Below are positions 13,673-24,648 of a DNA stretch of 64,000 nucleotides, one piece after another. Position numbers and translations under genes: made by a program. The stretch is from Tubulanus polymorphus. Lineage: Eukaryota; Nemertea; Palaeonemertea; Tubulaniformes; Tubulanidae. Location of the stretch: assembly GCF_964204645.1 (NCBI RefSeq), contig NC_134029.1, forward strand, positions 23,020,450-23,084,449, written 5' to 3'. Within the stretch, counting starts at the first letter, position 1. Every line of letters starts with the position of its first letter. The notes beneath the pieces were generated by a model that had not been told where the DNA came from, made no database searches, and worked only from the letters and a program-made list of their open reading frames with translations.

Positions 13673-16600
13673 TTATGCACGCAAGCTTGTAGGGCTAAAT
13701 GCAACACTTTTTGGACTTGTGGATTGAGACATTGAACCGCCACGTTTCCCCATACGCTTGTATCGTTGTTCAATCCAAACTTTAGGCAGGTAATGTTGCG
13801 GCGGTGCTATTAGAACCAGACGACTGTCAACGCTGTTAGTGTTTTGAGCGCAGGAAATGAGTAAGACTATCGTCGATATGGAGATAGCTATCAGCCAGGC
13901 AATTAGTCCGATGAATACTTGTGGATTTACAAAGAGATTTTCACCTGCAAAGGTAGTATACAATAGCATCAAAGCAAGAATTTATCGAGGAACTTCGCAG
14001 TTAATCAAAACCGTTGAATTCTTGGATACCTTTTAACTTTCCACGGTTAGGTTTTTGAACCAACGTATTGTAGCATTCATAACTCCCTTGAGTATTCATA
14101 CAGATCTGATTTTTTGCGCACGGAGATTTTTCATTCTGGCATTCGTCGATATCTGGAACAGTAAACATACATTTAGAATGCATACATACACCTGGGTCCA
14201 GTTCCACAGTTCTAAGTTAAAATTTGACCCTGAGTTAACTCATTGAAAATGAACTAATTTTAACTCAGAGTTAACTCTAACTCACAACTGTGGAACTGGA
14301 CCCTGTGCTTTATATTCTAGTACAACTTATTGGATAAAATGTAAAATCGTACCATTACAAGAGACGCGATTGCTGGACATTCGGAAACCTTTACTACACC
14401 GACACGCGTAATCTGTCCCATACACTAAATCATCTTTGGGTCCATCATCAAGCTTATTCGGGTACAAATGACACAGTTCTTGACAACCACCATTCGTTAT
14501 TAGACAACCATTAATTTCTGTAGTTGAAATACGTTCCGATATTGATTAACAAAAATAAAATCGCCTGTGAAGATCAGAATTAACTTAATTAATCTTATGA
14601 CACGCACCAATACAAGTTTTACTGTCTATACCGAGTTTAAATCCTGGACGACAAGAACAAATAACATCAGCAAAACGTTCTGTGCAGATATCATCACATC
14701 CACCATTACTCAACCTGCATATTCTACCTGCATTTAAAAACATTGAATAGTTGTGGATCAAACACTATCGATACGCGATGACGGGACAGGAAAAACTCAC
14801 TGGCAATAGCTCCGACTGGCCCTTTTTCTCCTTTGGTTCCAATCAAACCAGGCGGTCCCGGGTCACCTACCGGACCCTTCTTACCAGGTAAGCCAACTTT
14901 ACCTTTAAGTCCAGGAATACCTGAAACAAGACATTATGACAAGTATAAGAACATTCGCGGAGACTTTCAACTACCCAGGCATTCATTACAGCATCGAATG
15001 AGTTACCTTGTGGCCCTGGAATTCCACGACGTCCATTTACTTTGGAAGGAATGCCTTTTTTGCCTCTTAGACCTACATCACCTGGAGGACCTGGTGGACC
15101 AGGTTTAGCAATGCGACCTGTAGGTCCAGGAATCCCCAAAATGCCTCGACTACCATCAGCTCCTTTAAGGCCCTTTTCCCCCTGGTCTCCTTGCTCTCCT
15201 TTATCCCCAAAAGGTCCCTGAAATATAAAGATTATAAAAGTAATCTTTGACAAATATGAAAAGTACCAGAACATGAATTTGCATGTGATAGATACCATTT
15301 TTCCCGGGTATCCAGGATATCCACGTGGCCCTCTTGCACCAATCAATCCCATTTTTCCAGGTAGACCAACTGGACCTCTGTCTCCAGTAGGTCCTGGTGG
15401 CCCTGGATGACCATCCGGGGGTGCGGGAGCACGTTTGTATACTTTAGCTGAAAGAATAAACAAAAGGTAAGTGAACAATCAATAATCATAGACAATTCAG
15501 AAAAAATACTTACTTATCTCAACGTTTAAAGCATAAATTCTATCAACAGTTTTAGTCGAAGCAGATGAAAACTGCCCCACGCCGACTAATTTTGGCTGAT
15601 AAAGTACGAGCACTTGACTTCCTTCAGTTGGATTTTGTGTAAGATTAAAAGTCATCGGGGATTTTCCGTCGGTCGAAAATCCTAATGTGTCACCAATCAT
15701 AACGGTTACTGGACTGGGTGGGTAAACCTATGAAAGAGTGAGCACGAAAACTATCAATTTCACTGGGACTCAACAATTTATGCAACATTCACGCTCGATT
15801 ACCTGATGCGTTTTTGGAACTTTATTTGCTCTGATGCCGAATGAATAAACCAATTCCCAGATATCGTTTAGAACCGGTCGCCATAATTGTAAATATACGG
15901 CCTTATTTGTAGCGAGATAAACGCTGAATCGATAAATGAATCCATTAATTGGACTAATCTTCTTCATTAAGACGTAACCACTCACATCGGCCGGTAGTTC
16001 AAACATTCCAAAGTTTGCCGGGTTACCGATTGGCTTTGCTGTAAATAAAGACACTGATCTTCATTTGATAGAAGTAAAAGATCGGAGATTGTGCTCATGG
16101 AAAACATATACATCTACATACATGTATGTTCTTCACCAATGATCAGTTCACCACCAGCTGTAAGGAAAAGTAAGGTAAGCAAAAGAGAAACTTCGCACAA
16201 AGACATAGATTGAAAACAAACTTACAGAGGCTGATGACGCTCTTGGGTTTTATTGTAGAGGTCGGTAAAACTGAAGATGTGGTGAGAATAGAAGTTGTTG
16301 TACTCAGATGATGACCTGATAAGATATGATAAACATTTAACAATACTAATAACCGTTGATAAAACACTGTAGAGTCAACAATGATATCAGAACACTAATG
16401 AAAAATAGAATCCAAAATTTTCCTTAAACTGCAGTTTATTCGACTAATCCTAATATTCCTGAAGATAACTTTTAGTTGAAACATTGTAACCAAAACTACT
16501 AACTAGCTCAATGAAACATTTTGAACTTTATTCTTCATTTCAAGTGTGGGATTCTATATAGTGCTGTTATGATTCATAGTTAACATCAGCCAGATCAATT

Positions 16601-19600
16601 ACATTCACTTACAATACTGAGTGCTGTTTGTGGTGCTGACTGTTATCGCAAATTCCAATGGAGATATCATATTTGCGACGGTCACCGTGTCATCGACGTT
16701 TGGTAAAGAATTCAATGATGGAAATTTTGCAATCGACACAGCCTTGTTTACGCTAGCTAACTGACTGAGTGGAGCCCACGGAATTGTCGCCATTCCGAGA
16801 GTTGTGAAACCTAGTCGATCACCATCTTCAATCTGTATTACTTGACCGGTATTAATGAAAATCTACAAAACGCGTAACAGAAATTGCAAATAAAACACGA
16901 AGATCGTGAATGATTTTCTATTTTCCGATATAAGCCTACTAACTCTATGAAAACCTTGTGAATCCGGTTTGTAATTCAGTTGACCGATGAGTTTGTAGCG
17001 ATTATCTCCGACCGGACGCCAGACCTGATAGCGAGTCATTATTTTAGCGTTCATTATATACGCAGAGAAATGGCAAAGTTCACCACTGGTTAAATTATAC
17101 CCTTGAATCACGTATGAATTATAGCCATTTAACATTTCCGCTATCGAGGGCATTAATTTAAATCCTGTTTCTATGACTGAAATATGAAAATTTCATACAT
17201 TATCATTTACATCCATATACCCCGGTACATGTATGACATTCTTTTTTGTACCTGGATTTTGCTCGCTTTCAAGAGGGCAAGGAACAGGAGTAGGAGCAAC
17301 AAAGTTCTCACCTAAAAATCAATCGATATTTATCCACTCAGGTTTGTTATCTTGTAAGTACGATCAAATAATAAGGCTTTGATGAACTGTACATTTGAAA
17401 GAATGAGAAGTCGGAGAACAAGAAATATTTGGAATAGAATTCAACGCAACTTACAGTGTTCAGGATGATTAGAGACACCAACTTTAATAGAATATCTATA
17501 GACAACTGTTGAAGAAATTGCTACAGTATCATTCACTTGTGGTAGTTGTTCAATTGATGCGAACTCTTTGTAGTATGAATTTTGATAGTCTACAGTGAAG
17601 GCAATTGTCCCGGTACCGACTGTCGCAAAACCTATTTGATCGTGATTATGCACATGAATAGGATATCTCCAGTCGACAATGTATGCCTAGAAATAAACAA
17701 AGAACTGATGACAAATAGATAGAGGTTCTGGCTTGTTAAAGTAAATTAGAAACTACCACTCACTTTGTGTTTTTGATCAGCCGATGGAGGCGTGAATTTC
17801 AATTCAGCCACGAGTTTTTTTGAGAATGTGAACTTTTGTAGATGGACGTCCCGCCATATTTGAAATCGTACGGGAGCGACTTTTGTAAAATATGCCTCGA
17901 AGTAACATATGTAGCTTTCGAGCAGATGAAACCCGTCAATGATGTGTACAAAATAACCATCTTTTGTCGCCAATCCAGGCACGATACTGTTACCAAATAC
18001 TGCTTCTATGAAAAGCGTATGAACAAAACAAGTTAATACCAAGAAAAAATGACACATCATTTCCTGCAGTATTGCACATTGATACATACTAATATGCTCT
18101 GCAGGTTTTGGATGAAAAGTTGGTGGAGCCACGGTCATACAGACTTTCTCAGTTGTTATTCTAGGAATTACTAAAAAAACAGCAGTTCATTCTTGAAGCG
18201 TCTCGAAGCAATAAATACACAGCTATCAGTCTTAAATATTCAAAGATATACCTGTTGGTATTACGCAGTTTGTTGGTACCGGAAAGTTTGGACCTGCAAA
18301 AAGAATGTTGACATTTTCTGGCTGCATAACAAAATAGAAATATCTAGTAACCGTTTGAACAATTTTCAAAAACTACTCACAAGAAACTGGATGAGAAGCT
18401 ACATCAACATTCAACGAAAACTTGTACACATTTACGAGAGAATCTATTTTCATTGTGGAGTTGACTTGCGGAGAGCTATCGTTAGCTTTCAGTTTTCGGA
18501 AAACAACAACAGAACCTTCGCTATAAAACTGGTAGGGAATAGCTCCCATATCATTGGATGTAAATCCGATCAAATCTCCAGCCAGAATTTCAGTTTGAGT
18601 TGAACTCCAGTCAGGCTCAATCTGAAATTGATGTCATTCGTCGATAATTCAATTGGTATCAATTAGATCTGCACGATTATTTTAGTAAATGCATAATCAA
18701 ATTTCTTTACCGTATGATTGCCAATTGTTGAAGCATTGAAACGAACTTCACTTATGAGTTTGAAAGTCGTCGTTGAAAGTTTCCTCCATATTTGAAACTT
18801 AGTAGTCGAAGGTCGCGTGAAATATGCGTTGAAATTGCACACATAGCCTTTGGGTAGCGGAACTGATATCAAAATATACACGTAATGCCCATTCAGAGTT
18901 TTAGTACCTGATTCAGCTGGATATCCAAACTGTTCAACTAGAAGTAAAAAAAATCGATTCATCCTAAATTCCTACAACGACTTGCTTTGCAATTAATATA
19001 TATGTTCAGTAATACAAATACAAGGAAAAAGATATTCCTTACTTCGACTGTTACTGTAAGGTCCATATGTATCAGTTATGTGTAAACATTCAGGAGCCAT
19101 GGTAGTCGTAGTTTTCAAAGGAGTAGTTGTTGTTATAGTTGATTGAGTAGTAGTTAATGCTGTGGTAGTTGAAGTTGCCGTAGTAGTCTTAGTAGGAACA
19201 GTGGTTGGTAGTGTTGTAGATAAGGTAGTAGAAATAGTGCTTGACATAGTGTCTGAAATAAAAGAAATGAATGGAGTAAAGATGAAACAAATGATTTATT
19301 AACATTTCTAGAATGGGATCAATGGGTTCACTCGAAGTTGAGAATCAGGGAAATTCTATCCTTGATCAAAACACTTACTTGGAGTGGTACAAGTTGGTAT
19401 AGTATGATTATAACTGGGGCACAGTACTGGATGTGTTACGACAGTTGCTTGTAACGCGAACTTGTAAAGCGACGCAGTTGATGAAATAACAACATTCTCT
19501 CCTCGCATGAACACGTGAAGCGGTGAAAATGATCGAAAGAAAACGTTCGATTTGAAATCTACATTGAACGATATCGGACATTTGTTGTCACACGTAAATC

Positions 19601-20268
19601 CAAATTTTTCTGTGCCATCGAGAGGAATGGGGTCTGTCCAATCTACATCTGCCTGTAACATTGGAAAAATCAATGAAATTCACCTATAAAAGCTACATAT
19701 GTTACTTCGAGGCATATTTAACAAAAGTCGCTCCCGTGCGATTTCAAATATGGTGGGACGTCCATCTACAAAAAGTTCACACTCTCAAAAAAACTTGTGG
19801 CTGAATTGAAAATGTGAAATCATTAAGAATGAAATCAAACTGAATAAAACTAACCTGGGATTTTCCTGCTACGGATACATGTTTATGAATCTGTCCAACA
19901 ATTACCCAGTGAATGTGATCGACTAGTCCTTCTAATCTTTTAAACACTTGCAATGTTACATGACCCCGTCGACTACTTAACAGTTTGAAGTCGCACAAAT
20001 ATCCACGACTTAATGTGAAATCCTTGATGATATACGTCACTTTATGTTTGCCAGGAGTACTAAGTCGGACACCTGCAACCAATGGGTTCCCAGACACAGT
20101 CCCTGAAAGTTTTAGAAATATAATTTGAAGTTTTATGTCATGAAATTGAAATGGTATTTCATAATACGCCTCACCAAAATGAGAGAAGTTTTTGTGAAAA
20201 CATACGAGTATCTGTTGCTGAAACTGTTCTGTTGACTTGAAACCGAATGCCACAGGGTACACCACTCG
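13673..20268 (-). CDS. Modular type I membrane protein: five copies of an unrecognised two-exon domain, collagen repeats, three EGF modules, TM helix
   Basis: Exons from 5' to 3' (minus): 20206-20268, 19855-20102, 19379-19652, 19043-19252, 18711-18937, 18381-18621, 18252-18293, 18090-18170, 17764-18005, 17455-17686, 17252-17311, 16944-17176, 16613-16862, 16226-16315, 16122-16157, 15803-16038, 15514-15727, 15296-15447, 15007-15217, 14801-14920, 14608-14727, 14353-14517, 14030-14152, 13673-13944; about 1380 residues. Five domains are each split into half A (GYxC, then FQIWRPV) and half B (DxxGFT, later QVN.TV and HPxxC). A-exons have phases 1-0, B-exons 0-1 and linkers 1-1, so the modules are symmetric. 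A Thr-rich mucin-like linker (19043-19252) follows the first domain. Then come Gly-X-Y triplets with one interruption, two EGF modules, a calcium-binding EGF ([12 protein letters not shown]), a TM helix ([20 protein letters not shown]) and a basic tail of about 55 residues. A poly(A) signal (minus) lies at 13641-13646. No signal peptide was found, so the 5' end is open. Function unknown; cell-surface or matrix adhesion is inference. Confidence 0.85.
14194..14303. mobile_element. Foldback MITE, 110 bp
   Basis: The ends GGGTCCAGTTCCACAGTT and AACTGTGGAACTGGACCC are perfect 18-bp inverted repeats. The interior also contains inverted GAGTTAACTC pieces, so the whole element folds back. It lies in the intron between EGF exons 14353-14517 and 14030-14152. 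A related half (CCAGTTCCACGGTTCC) is seen near 56422. Confidence 0.85.
19691..19812 (+). pseudogene. Inverted partial copy of a half-A exon of the modular membrane protein
   Basis: On the plus strand this stretch encodes [20 protein letters not shown] and then a frame-broken continuation. It is a near-identical, opposite-orientation copy of about 17797-17917 within exon 17764-18005 of the same gene. One frameshift near HLQK and a downstream TGA break it. It sits in the intron between exons 19855-20102 and 19379-19652, antisense to transcription. The high identity implies a recent inverted duplication, or an assembly artefact. Confidence 0.85.
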
Positions 20269-20372: not shown

Positions 20373-20525
20373 TTGTTGCGTAGCTTATGGGAAATATTTC
20401 CATTATCCCATACAAAGATGGTAAAAATGTATTCGGAAGGCCTCCAAATTCAAAAACTGTTTTCCATGTCAGTACAAAGCCCATTTCGATACAGTTTAAA
20501 TATCCATACTCCAAATAAAAAGAAT
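20373..20525 (-). pseudogene. Possible decayed half-A exon (sixth domain copy)
   Basis: The minus strand reads IWRPSEYIFTIFVWDN and on to KLRNKV, ending at a good donor (GTAAGT, complement at 20367-20372) in the phase needed by the next exon (20206-20268). It resembles the FQIWRPV half-A signature of the downstream gene, with LCTDMENSF upstream. A TGA stands where the residue before IWRP should be, so it is either a dead exon, a shorter exon starting inside, or a sequencing error. Confidence 0.35.
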
Positions 20526-21655: not shown

Positions 21656-22858
21656 TCATCCTCCGATGAGAATCATAGGTCTATTTTTCATCGTCGCTAT
21701 ATTTAACATTCCAGCATGTTGTTTCTTCTTGCGTTTCACGGCGCGACCGATAATTTCCAACAATTGCGCGTCGTCCGTCGACGTCATCGTTCCGGAACGC
21801 AGCGCGTCGCGTAACGAAACCTCGTTGGCGCCGAACAAACAAACTTTCAAATTACCGTCCGCCGTTATACGCAGACGATTACACGAACCGCAAAAATGAT
21901 CGCTCATCGACGTGATGAAACCGACTCGACCGCGATAACCCGGTACCGCGTACGCTTTAGACGTATCGTTCGCACCGTCGTTCAAACGTTCGAAATCCGG
22001 CCAAACTTCGCGGATCGATTCGACCATTTTTTTATAGCTGACAAACTTTTTCAAATTCCAGCGATTTCCGTCGAACGGCATATACTCGATAAAACGCACG
22101 TCGATGTCTTTGTTTTCGGTTAATTTGACGAAATCGACGACTTCTTCCTCGTTGACTCCGTTCATCACGACGCAGTTTAATTTAACCGGGCTGTATCCGA
22201 GTTCTAACGCTTTATCCAAACTATTCATCACTTTATCCCAGCCTCTACGACGCGTAATGAATTCGAATTTCGCCGGAATCAACGTGTCCAAACTGATATT
22301 TATCAAATCGAGTCCGGCTCGTTTTAAATCGGGAAGTTTTCGACCTAACGTGATTCCGTTCGTCGTCATAGCGATCGTCTCTAAACCGTATTTTCGGAAT
22401 TTGTTCATTTCGCCGATAATCGATACGATATCCGGTCTAACGAGCGGTTCGCCACCTGTCAATCGTATTTTAGTCACGCCTTCTTTTACGAATAAGCGTG
22501 CGATCGTGATCACTTCGTCAGTCGTTAGCAGCTCATTTTTTGGACTTAGATCAACGCCTTCTTCGGGCATACAATACTGACATCTCAAGTTACATCGTTC
22601 GGTAAGCGAAATTCGGAGGTAATCATGTTGACGGGCGTACGTGTCAGTGAGGAACTCAGAAAATGGCCTGATTTCCTCGGTAAACTTAGACTTGACACCC
22701 TGCATTACATCGTTGCTTTGCGCTTTACTTGTGGTATCTGATACGAGACGATTTACGTGTTGTCTTACTGACAAACATGACTTAAATAGCTTAATTTTGT
22801 GAAAATTATAGACACTGTTGCGAATCATGTAAGTCGCCATTTTGTCCAAGCTGGTCAT
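21656..22858 (-). CDS. MOCS1: Molybdenum cofactor biosynthesis radical SAM enzyme, GTP 3',8-cyclase (MOCS1A/MoaA)
   Basis: One uninterrupted 400-residue reading frame. MoaA-type enzymes convert GTP to 3',8-cyclo-7,8-dihydro-GTP, the first step of molybdopterin synthesis, in the mitochondrial matrix in animals. Residues 1-60 are basic, low in acidic residues and compatible with a mitochondrial presequence. The radical SAM cluster motif CNLRCQYC gives Cys89, Cys93 and Cys96. [11 protein letters not shown] follows, and the C-terminal second-cluster motif CGSCNRLR...KVC is intact. The protein ends in ...MILIGG: the C-terminal Gly-Gly is essential in MOCS1A-type proteins (family knowledge). Usual animal MOCS1 genes have several exons and also encode MOCS1B. 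Here there are no introns and no MOCS1B sequence nearby. GC content is higher than in the flanks. The start chosen is the first ATG; an upstream exon cannot be excluded. Confidence 0.95.
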
Positions 22859-24648
22859 GTGATTTATCTAGACGCTACATCCGCGGCAATCTCAGTGGGT
22901 TCGAATCCTGTAAATGTTTCACACGCGGGATTTTCAAACTTCTACTTTCACCAACACCAAAAGAAAGTAGCAATGATTTTTATATCATACAAAATATGAA
23001 AATGTGAAACATTTGATAATCATTGGAATTTTATAATTTAATTTTCCAATTACTTAATTCGGACATATGATACAGATTTCAGAACAATAATCCGTGTCTA
23101 AGGAAAACTCATACCTGAATAGATGTAAATAATTCCAAGGAAAAAGGTTGTCAGGAAAATCATAGCTTGTTCTTCTCTTACCACTGTAAGGATCCACCTA
23201 CTTCAGACACTGAAAGAATCCACCTACTTCAGCACGGACGGAATAATTCCAAATTTGAACTGGTGTGGCCACTGCGCACGGTTGACGTACCCGTTTATCG
23301 GGTCGCGTGAGTCCAATCAACCAGATCCACTTAATCCTTAAGTACGATGATGCGGGGCTTTTACATTTATTTGGCAAGGACGTTCTCTGAGTGAGGACGT
23401 TCTCTAGTGTAATTTAAGTCTTTCGCAAATCAGAGTGCCTGTCTCTGTCATTGAATCCAACGTGCACCGGTGGCTGTTTTTGGGTGTAAATGAATGTTTA
23501 AAGATTGATCCCGTCTGGTCAGCTGAAATTGAAAATGACCAATGTGTCGTGTCGTGATATGTGTTTTACTTTTTTTCTATAATGCATACTTTGACTTACA
23601 TTTCATATGACAATATCATCCGAATAAAAAGATCAGAAATCATAGCAGCTATGACATTAAGATGGAATTTTCTTAAAATCCGCTGCGAGTTCTTTTTTTT
23701 ATTCATTTCAGTTATTTTATACCGTGAAAAAAGGCACTAAAATGAACCACTTTTAAAAAATGATTATTCTCTTTTATCTAGAATGAATAAATGCGATAAC
23801 TTTTCAATGAGAAAAAATTTATATACGCCAAAAATTGTCTGATTTTCCATTTGATGGCTCGTATCAGAGAGTGTAAACGCGAACGACACATACAAAATAT
23901 TTCATATACTATATTAAAGCCTACAACTCTAAAGTGGAAAAGTCTGAATAAAATTACCAATCCAGCAAAAGCTTAATTTTGATATTCATTAATTCATGAT
24001 ATCGAGCGAGGGCACGCCCAATCAAAAAAGTTATTGGGATTCGAACCCACGCGTCGATTATGTGTCATTGACGGTCGTGACGTCACGAAGTGATATCAGT
24101 ACTATAAAATGGAAAAATTACCAAGATGATGAAATATCAGTAAAAGTACTAATCAACAACCATTCGGTATTGATTCATTGTTAAGATTAAAAGGTAAGTT
24201 TTCGAGTGATATCTGTGATGTTTATGATGAGAAGGAGGAAAGATGAGAAAATGTGTAGAAACTTCAGCGTTTTCATCAAATTCAATTCAATAAAGATTTA
24301 TTGTATATCCTTGCTGTAGTTTTGAAACCGAAAGTTAGAATTGTTCACTAGATTTTACACGTCTACTGTTAAAGCATCACATATTAAGCTGTCTAACTAT
24401 TGCTATGCCCTTTGACCACAACCCTTATCCTTCCTTCTTAATCTTAACACTGTCAGTCAGTCAGTTAGTGATGGAAATGTTTGATCTTCCAAACTTAGTC
24501 TGAATACCAGTCGTTGTTACCGGTTGTTTGTAGAACGACGGCTAGGTACTAGACTAACGACTCCAAACTTTACCAGGCATCTATCTGTTCACTATTTCGA
24601 AACTTCTTGTTAATACTTTTTTGAAAACTTCTTGTTAATATTTTGTAG
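22859..24648. other. Divergent intergenic region between MOCS1A and HMG-CoA reductase
   Basis: No coding exon recognised. Two tRNA B-box-like sequences occur (GGGTTCGAATCC at about 22897 on +; GGATTCGAACCC at about 24038 on +), probably tails of tRNA-derived SINEs. A perfect CRE octamer TGACGTCA lies at 24078-24085. The HMG-CoA reductase promoter and 5' UTR exon(s) must lie here, because the first coding ATG directly follows a splice acceptor (TTTTGTAG). Confidence 0.55.
24078..24085. promoter_or_regulatory. CRE-like octamer TGACGTCA
   Basis: A perfect CREB-type palindrome about 560 bp upstream of the HMG-CoA reductase start codon. CRE sites occur in vertebrate HMG-CoA reductase promoters, but a single octamer is weak evidence, and the same octamer also appears in a receptor intron at about 953-960. 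Confidence 0.3.

Follow-up and report, generated by a model that had tools for sequence, protein, structure and literature searches.

A nemertean gene encoding five tandem copies of an unnamed domain with a predicted lectin-like fold on a collagen-EGF-transmembrane tail

A 64,000-nucleotide stretch of the genome of the nemertean Tubulanus polymorphus (hereafter the window; positions 23020450 to 23084449 of contig NC_134029.1, called C5 here) carries a gene for a modular membrane protein, in which five copies of a domain new to the sequence libraries we searched are followed by collagen, three epidermal growth factor-like domains (EGFs), a single transmembrane (TM) helix and a cytoplasmic tail. 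Predicted models and an intact exon chain make the beta-sandwich fold of the repeated domain, which we call the head, and the architecture of the protein well supported. From these features we infer a trimer, a glycan ligand and a role at the cell surface: in the reading that we prefer, and hold with middling confidence, the protein would be a type I surface receptor or adhesin that is trimerized by its collagen and binds glycans multivalently through lectin-fold heads.

The gene was read from genomic DNA only (the assembly comprises 268 Mb in 77 contigs), and its positions are given in window numbering. On the minus strand, from 20268 to 13673, we found 24 exons, each preceded by AG and, with the exception of the last, followed by GT (23 of 24). 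When joined, these exons have compatible phases throughout and leave a frame of approximately 1,380 residues open to a single stop. Their order is a linker, domain 1, a Ser/Thr-rich linker, domain 2, two short linkers, domain 3, a linker and domain 4, and then two linkers, domain 5, three collagen exons, three EGF exons and a final exon with the TM helix, tail and stop. The parts named in an earlier description made from the letters of the window alone (the original prediction) are all present on this strand, at the coordinates given there. Half A of the domain has phases 1-0 and half B phases 0-1 in all five copies, and all seven linker exons are 1-1, as had also been described; with such phases the frame survives duplication of either a domain or a linker. 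The suggestion that the gene grew by duplication of exon pairs is supported by these phases and by the same pattern in a second gene, described below.

The head domain spans approximately 150 to 160 residues over two exons, and its five copies in the window gene (W1 to W5) share 17 to 33% identity with one another. Profiles built from four copies recovered the fifth in 10 of 10 tests (five A halves and five B halves), with E values of 5.2e-15 to 8.2e-4 against 2,825 open reading frames (ORFs) of the window, among which the best ORF holding no copy reached an E value of 0.096 or worse. These left-out tests place the five two-exon copies of the original prediction beyond chance. The exception among the noncopy ORFs was one on the opposite strand, which holds a true inverted duplicate of half A3: positions 19689-19811 (+) correspond to 17797-17918 (-), over 123 bp and with 95.1% identity to part of the A3 exon. 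This duplicate sits in the intron between A1 and B1 and is a case of movement of exon material within the gene. The motifs first described for the domain are present but looser than proposed, the FQIWRPV string being FQIWR in W2 and W3, YQVWRPV in W4, LQLWRPV in W5 and LQVFKRL in W1.

Predicted models of domains 2 and 4 were both nearly all-beta, in support of the beta-rich extracellular sandwich that had been proposed from the residues. In structure comparisons the whole-domain fold of these models is that of the Cwp84 lectin-like domain. The nearest folds were this domain, phage virion domains and carbohydrate-binding modules (CBMs) of esterases, and the whole-domain matches of highest Z score were lectin-like or CBM-type domains and phage virion domains. 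In the structural alignments the heads share 5 to 10% identity with Cwp84, whose domain has a calcium site at Leu339, Glu448, Lys460 and Asn487, and 4 to 9% with the esterase CBMs (PbeAcXE, CspAcXE, and FjoAcXE). The ASCC191-group neck domain was also among the structure matches. A passage of one paper gives the Cwp84 fold in phage tail fibers as a putative CBM (PMC11406892), and passages of another liken the ASCC191-group neck C-terminal domain to the CBM of a carbohydrate esterase and report weak host-cell binding by a neck CBM of another fold (PMC6669499). Unlike the heads, which would be borne on a membrane, the CBMs of esterases and of phage fibers and necks sit in soluble enzymes or virion parts. 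Since the fold relatives are lectin-like or CBM-type domains, a glycan would be the most likely guess for the ligand of the heads, which is a guess rather than a finding. Two phage entries of BFVD annotated with the collagen triple-helix repeat, A0A6J5MYA7 and A0A6J5N5F5_2, contain a region of similar predicted fold (TMq of 0.59 and 0.51), a pairing of a head-like fold with collagen repeats that is perhaps convergent.

The part of the protein that follows the heads was matched in Pfam by Collagen (4.4e-24), FXa_inhibition (1.5e-15), cEGF (2.2e-12) and EGF_CA (5.8e-8). Its three collagen exons contain 47 Gly-X-Y triplets, in runs of 25, 6 and 16, and a Lys-Arg pair immediately precedes them. 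Collagen, three EGFs, a single TM helix and a tail are all present as originally predicted, with the qualification that the third EGF is cut to four Cys. Within the intron between EGF 2 and EGF 3 lies a palindromic repeat of approximately 117 bp (window 14185-14312), for which a first look listed 1,951 candidates genome-wide; the 40 that were scored were mostly 92 to 100% identical. It looks like an abundant, recently active element of the type of miniature inverted-repeat transposable elements.

Features of the window gene, in window numbering and in the direction of the gene. pLDDT, predicted local distance difference test; pTM, predicted template modeling score.
Feature	Positions	Strand	Remarks
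Linker exon x0	20206..20268	-	Phase 1-1, one Cys; first exon recovered
Domain 1, half A	19855..20102	-	Phase 1-0
Domain 1, half B	19379..19652	-	Phase 0-1, with HPVLC
Linker L1, Ser/Thr-rich, mucin-like	19043..19252	-	54% Ser + Thr
Domain 2, half A	18711..18937	-	Modeled copy, pLDDT 82.0, pTM 0.82
Domain 2, half B	18381..18621	-	Modeled copy
Linker L2	18252..18293	-	
Linker L2b	18090..18170	-	
Domain 3, half A	17764..18005	-	
Domain 3, half B	17455..17686	-	
Linker L3	17252..17311	-	
Domain 4, half A	16944..17176	-	Second modeled copy, pLDDT 77.8, pTM 0.77
Domain 4, half B	16613..16862	-	Second modeled copy
Linker L4, Ser/Thr-rich	16226..16315	-	47% Ser + Thr
Linker L4b	16122..16157	-	
Domain 5 (membrane-proximal), half A	15803..16038	-	No GYxC Cys
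Domain 5, half B	15514..15727	-	No terminal Cys
Collagen exon 1	15296..15447	-	Pfam Collagen (4.4e-24 for the tail)
Collagen exon 2	15007..15217	-	Pfam Collagen
Collagen exon 3	14801..14920	-	Last of three Gly-X-Y exons
EGF 1	14608..14727	-	FXa_inhibition type (Pfam)
EGF 2	14353..14517	-	Pfam
EGF 3, calcium type	14030..14152	-	Truncated to four Cys
Single TM helix, cytoplasmic tail, stop	13673..13944	-	TM helix seen as a hydrophobic run

Searching the T. polymorphus genome with window copies 4 and 2, and then fetching and profile-scanning the region found, we identified a paralogue approximately 14 Mb from the window gene on its contig (C5:9,176,865-9,195,929). Its 13 A/B pairs (Q1 to Q13) lie on one strand, and the gene also has linkers rich in Ser and Thr, collagen exons, three EGFs like those of the window gene, a TM helix and a tail. 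In-phase AG/GT borders of the expected kind were found for 12 of the 13 copies, the misfit being the B-exon border of Q11. Aligned directly, the paralogue and window tails match with an E value of 4e-21 (29% identity over 160 positions, the TM helix included). Just upstream of the first copy, an exon that starts with a good signal-peptide-like sequence has a phase-1 donor at its end, and the next exon is a 1-1 linker that resembles x0 and likewise has a Cys. Two groups of near-identical tandem copies, Q7 to Q10 (C5:9,181,400-9,184,200) and Q1 to Q3 (9,191,300-9,195,930), appear from their sequences to be recent duplicates, that is, recent growth in copy number. The rest of the 120 kb scanned around the paralogue contained no further copy of the head domain.

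Directly upstream of the paralogue, on the same strand, is a third gene with the collagen-EGF-TM chassis (C5:9,199,127-9,201,148 and 9,204,374-9,204,745, minus strand). It encodes collagen, three EGFs, a TM helix and a tail, and matches the window tail with an E value of 2e-9. The third EGF has four Cys here too, being equally truncated in both chassis paralogues of the window gene, and the TM helix and tail are common to all three chassis genes. An exon approximately 3 kb further upstream matches an I-set Ig domain (E value of 7.8e-6), which may serve this gene as a head in place of the lectin-fold heads. A genome search with the tail of the third gene found no other chassis gene; one with the window tail matched the paralogue itself only weakly (E value of 0.079), so the chassis may have further, diverged members.

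Relatives of the head domain also occur outside these genes. Using three relatives as queries (E ≤ 1e-3; all counts of places are lower bounds), we found at least 25 further places that encode relatives, a figure that includes two of the queries; they lie on contigs C2, C3, C4, C5, C6, C9 and C11. In at least eight of these places a near-whole-domain match lies in one open frame, and since both halves then share a frame, no intron separates them; we call these one-exon relatives. All 10 relative places that were fetched gave profile matches, with E values of 2.1e-6 or better. Together with the 18 two-exon copies, the genome has at least 43 places encoding the head domain. Further clusters of relatives lie at C9:15663551-15677499, where two other copies have 87 and 88% identity with the one used as query, and at C6:2923109-2936050. 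Sushi, C-type lectin and ShK are matched by same-strand open frames around the copy at C5:6213687, and VWD by one near a weak copy at C7:561096 (E value of 0.167); these frames may share a gene with the head copy nearby.

The two gene-structure classes align as a single family by sequence: in an hhalign comparison, the 18 two-exon rows matched nine one-exon rows with a probability of 98.9% and an E value of 1.1e-17 over 137 columns. In a tree of these 27 copies, the two-exon copies fall on one side of a branch with support of 100/98. W5 pairs with Q13 (98/93), each being the membrane-proximal copy of its gene, and W4 groups with Q7 to Q10 (92/83). Several inner branches are unsettled, Q11 has a long branch, and Q12 and W1 have long branches in a smaller tree; the splits we rely on are the class split, the W5 and Q13 pair, the recent duplicates and, with care, W4 with Q7 to Q10. 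Both genes run through these two sets in one shared order, so the ancestral gene probably already contained several copies when it was duplicated.

The Cys residues of the heads vary between copies. In W1 to W4 the GYxC strand has its Cys and the spliced exons supply another at the domain end, the two being predicted to form a disulfide; W5 has neither and ends in Thr. In the paralogue copies an intron interrupts the final codon of half B, and good candidates for the next exon give a terminal Cys for Q1, Q2, Q3 and Q5. For Q4 this residue comes from a weaker candidate and for Q6 none was found; a stricter scan lists candidates starting with Ser for Q1, Q2, Q4 and Q6. Eight copies lack the GYxC Cys (W5, Q7 to Q10, Q11, Q12 and Q13). 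In Q7 to Q10, Q12 and Q13 the first base of the split codon is G or A, so the terminal residue is not Cys, while Q11 has another Cys near the domain end and may be an exception to the rule that copies without the first Cys lack the second. A strict form of that rule, with a terminal Cys in 10 of 10 copies with the GYxC Cys and 0 of 8 others, was withdrawn and its P values are not used, since the count is partly an artifact of split codons whose T/GT donors read as Cys when left unspliced. Such T/GT split codons at exon ends, for example 18381, 17455 and 16613, mimic Cys wherever domains are counted from ORFs. By eye, seven of the nine one-exon copies have a different Cys pair, in half B. This pattern fits an extracellular domain with interchangeable staples.

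The domain, described as unknown in the original prediction, has no name in the profile libraries searched. The five window copies had no match in Pfam at E ≤ 1, and wider sets had no convincing one (19 members at E ≤ 1; 27 members at E ≤ 10, with matches of single members only: PKD, 0.0092; Filamin, 0.029; DUF6337, 0.044). Five members matched nothing in NCBIfam and, in PHROGs, five families by one member each (best value, 0.038), which is not convincing. Matches by sequence in the PDB were at chance level (best E values, 0.54 and 0.6), none of 26 matches to peptide patterns of one copy was confirmed in prokaryote genomes, tblastn with one copy found nothing in plasmids and phages, and patterns of one copy found nothing in viral contigs; with single diverged copies as queries, these last negatives are weak. 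Among the open-license PMC papers listed in literature searches on the architecture and its motifs, no title or opening of an abstract described the head domain or the architecture. Similar uncharacterized proteins may exist in other invertebrates. The head family is thus new to the libraries searched, though its fold is already known.

The closest named candidate is Pfam PF18560 (Lectin_like), which we take to be the family of the Cwp84 domain. Its fetched members are archaeal and its solved one bacterial, and they do not stand on a collagen-EGF-TM chassis as the heads do. At E ≤ 10 it was listed for none of the 27 copies (curated cutoff, 27 bits), in searches where HMMER filters drop most weak matches, and its one match in the T. 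polymorphus genome, of 15.6 bits, lies at another place; by curated score, the head sequences do not count as PF18560. We also compared the heads with a profile of archaeal Lectin_like domains, which occur at 31 places in 14 of 20 genomes. Thirty were fetched and 24 of these 30 entered the profile, the six others leaving the anchor motif YDP.GW unmatched. With hhalign, this profile scored 22.4 against the 27 rows and 25.0 against the 18 two-exon rows (probabilities of 6.5 and 11.3%), compared to at most 15.9 and 18.1 for 29 shuffles and 12.1 and 9.5 for reversed profiles. The nine one-exon rows scored 17.4, with a probability of 0.9% over seven columns. These scores suggest that the heads and Lectin_like may have a common origin.

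Between 20268 and 24500 we found no exon that could be the first of the window gene and encode its expected signal peptide. A more stringent scan, extended to 32000, yielded a single weak candidate, an ATG at 23163 that opens a strongly hydrophobic stretch and has a GTA-type phase-1 donor; we do not claim it. It lies beyond a 403-codon ORF on the same strand upstream of the gene (21656-22867), presumably MOCS1A/MoaA-like with its radical-SAM CxxxCxxC, and this ORF restricts the site of the missing exon unless it is nested in an intron. The start of the window gene should resemble that of the paralogue. Near 20450 an IWRP string that follows a stop suggested a relic sixth half A; the half-A profile does not list it, and the idea was dropped.

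The EGFs, the Cys residues, the TM helix and the signal-peptide-like exon of the paralogue lead us to propose that the protein would be secreted and held in the membrane in type I orientation. Five beta-sandwich heads, on linkers of which two are mucin-like, would form its outer end. Given the Gly-X-Y triplets, the collagen stretch would wind three chains together, presenting approximately 15 heads per trimer (up to 39 in the paralogue), and the three EGFs, the last one truncated, and one helix would anchor the whole. The heads would most likely bind glycans, either from the matrix of the animal itself or from microbes, with weak single contacts adding up to tight binding by the assembly, as in a multivalent membrane lectin. 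A broader reading seems to us unlikely, namely an animal recognition system whose chassis carries exchangeable heads (5 lectin-fold domains in one gene, 13 in another and an Ig domain in a third) and in which a fold otherwise known from phage virions, bacterial surface proteins and esterase CBMs has become part of a glycan-reading receptor of variable copy number, with up to 39 heads per trimer.

The heads could instead bind one another or matrix proteins, in which case the protein would be a homophilic or protein-binding adhesion molecule and copy number would set its reach or specificity. We regard this as possible but doubtful: the strong divergence among copies is like that of adhesion arrays, the fold class also includes protein-binding domains (PHR, SUN and intraflagellar-transport), and the neighboring chassis gene may bear an Ig domain, while the whole-domain matches of best Z score are the lectin-like, CBM-type and phage virion domains. 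A structural or shed matrix protein, whose collagen would serve fibers or a coat and whose heads would be spacers or cross-linkers, is improbable. It would account for the mucin-like linkers and collagen, and the Lys-Arg pair before the collagen could be cleaved, much as a passage of PMC4678570 reports furin-mediated shedding of a transmembrane collagen; all three chassis genes nevertheless retain the TM helix and tail. That the exons belong to separate transcripts or to a decaying gene, as the missing signal-peptide exon and the recent inverted copy of A3 might suggest, is highly improbable: the 24 exons have intact borders, phases and frame, and their order recurs in the paralogue, where a signal-peptide-like exon is present.

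Collectins, ficolins, C1q, MARCO and SR-A combine a collagen stalk with recognition heads, and the window protein would share with them this plan and the avidity that follows from it. In collectins, ficolins and C1q the head is C-terminal to the collagen, whereas here the heads are N-terminal and the orientation would be type I. No lectin-C, fibrinogen, C1q or SRCR domain was listed for heads or tail in Pfam at E ≤ 1. The protein would act like a membrane-bound collagenous lectin, yet it belongs to none of those families. Membrane-bound, interrupted collagen is also found in the membrane-associated collagens with interrupted triple helices (MACITs; XIII, XXIII and XXV), which a passage of PMC4678570 describes as type II proteins with a short cytosolic N terminus and a largely collagenous ectodomain, the group to which the shedding precedent above belongs. 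Their order of N terminus, TM helix and collagen is not that of the window protein (heads, collagen, EGF, TM helix, tail), which has its TM helix at the C-terminal end, in the orientation proposed here, and a large noncollagenous head array.

None of the libraries searched has a name for this domain, although a single animal genome encodes it at no fewer than 43 places; the known repertoire of extracellular modules thus has a gap here, and a 27-row alignment now makes it possible to search for the family. Beyond what was first described, it is a large family with two gene-structure classes, some members of which lie beside other domains, and it ties an animal family to a fold whose other examples here were mostly CBMs, virion proteins of phages and surface proteins of bacteria. 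Should the heads bind glycans, the protein would be a type I membrane lectin on a collagen stalk, unlike collectins, MARCO or MACITs, and its tandem head exons, recently duplicated in the paralogue, would make it a candidate for the recognition of self or microbes.

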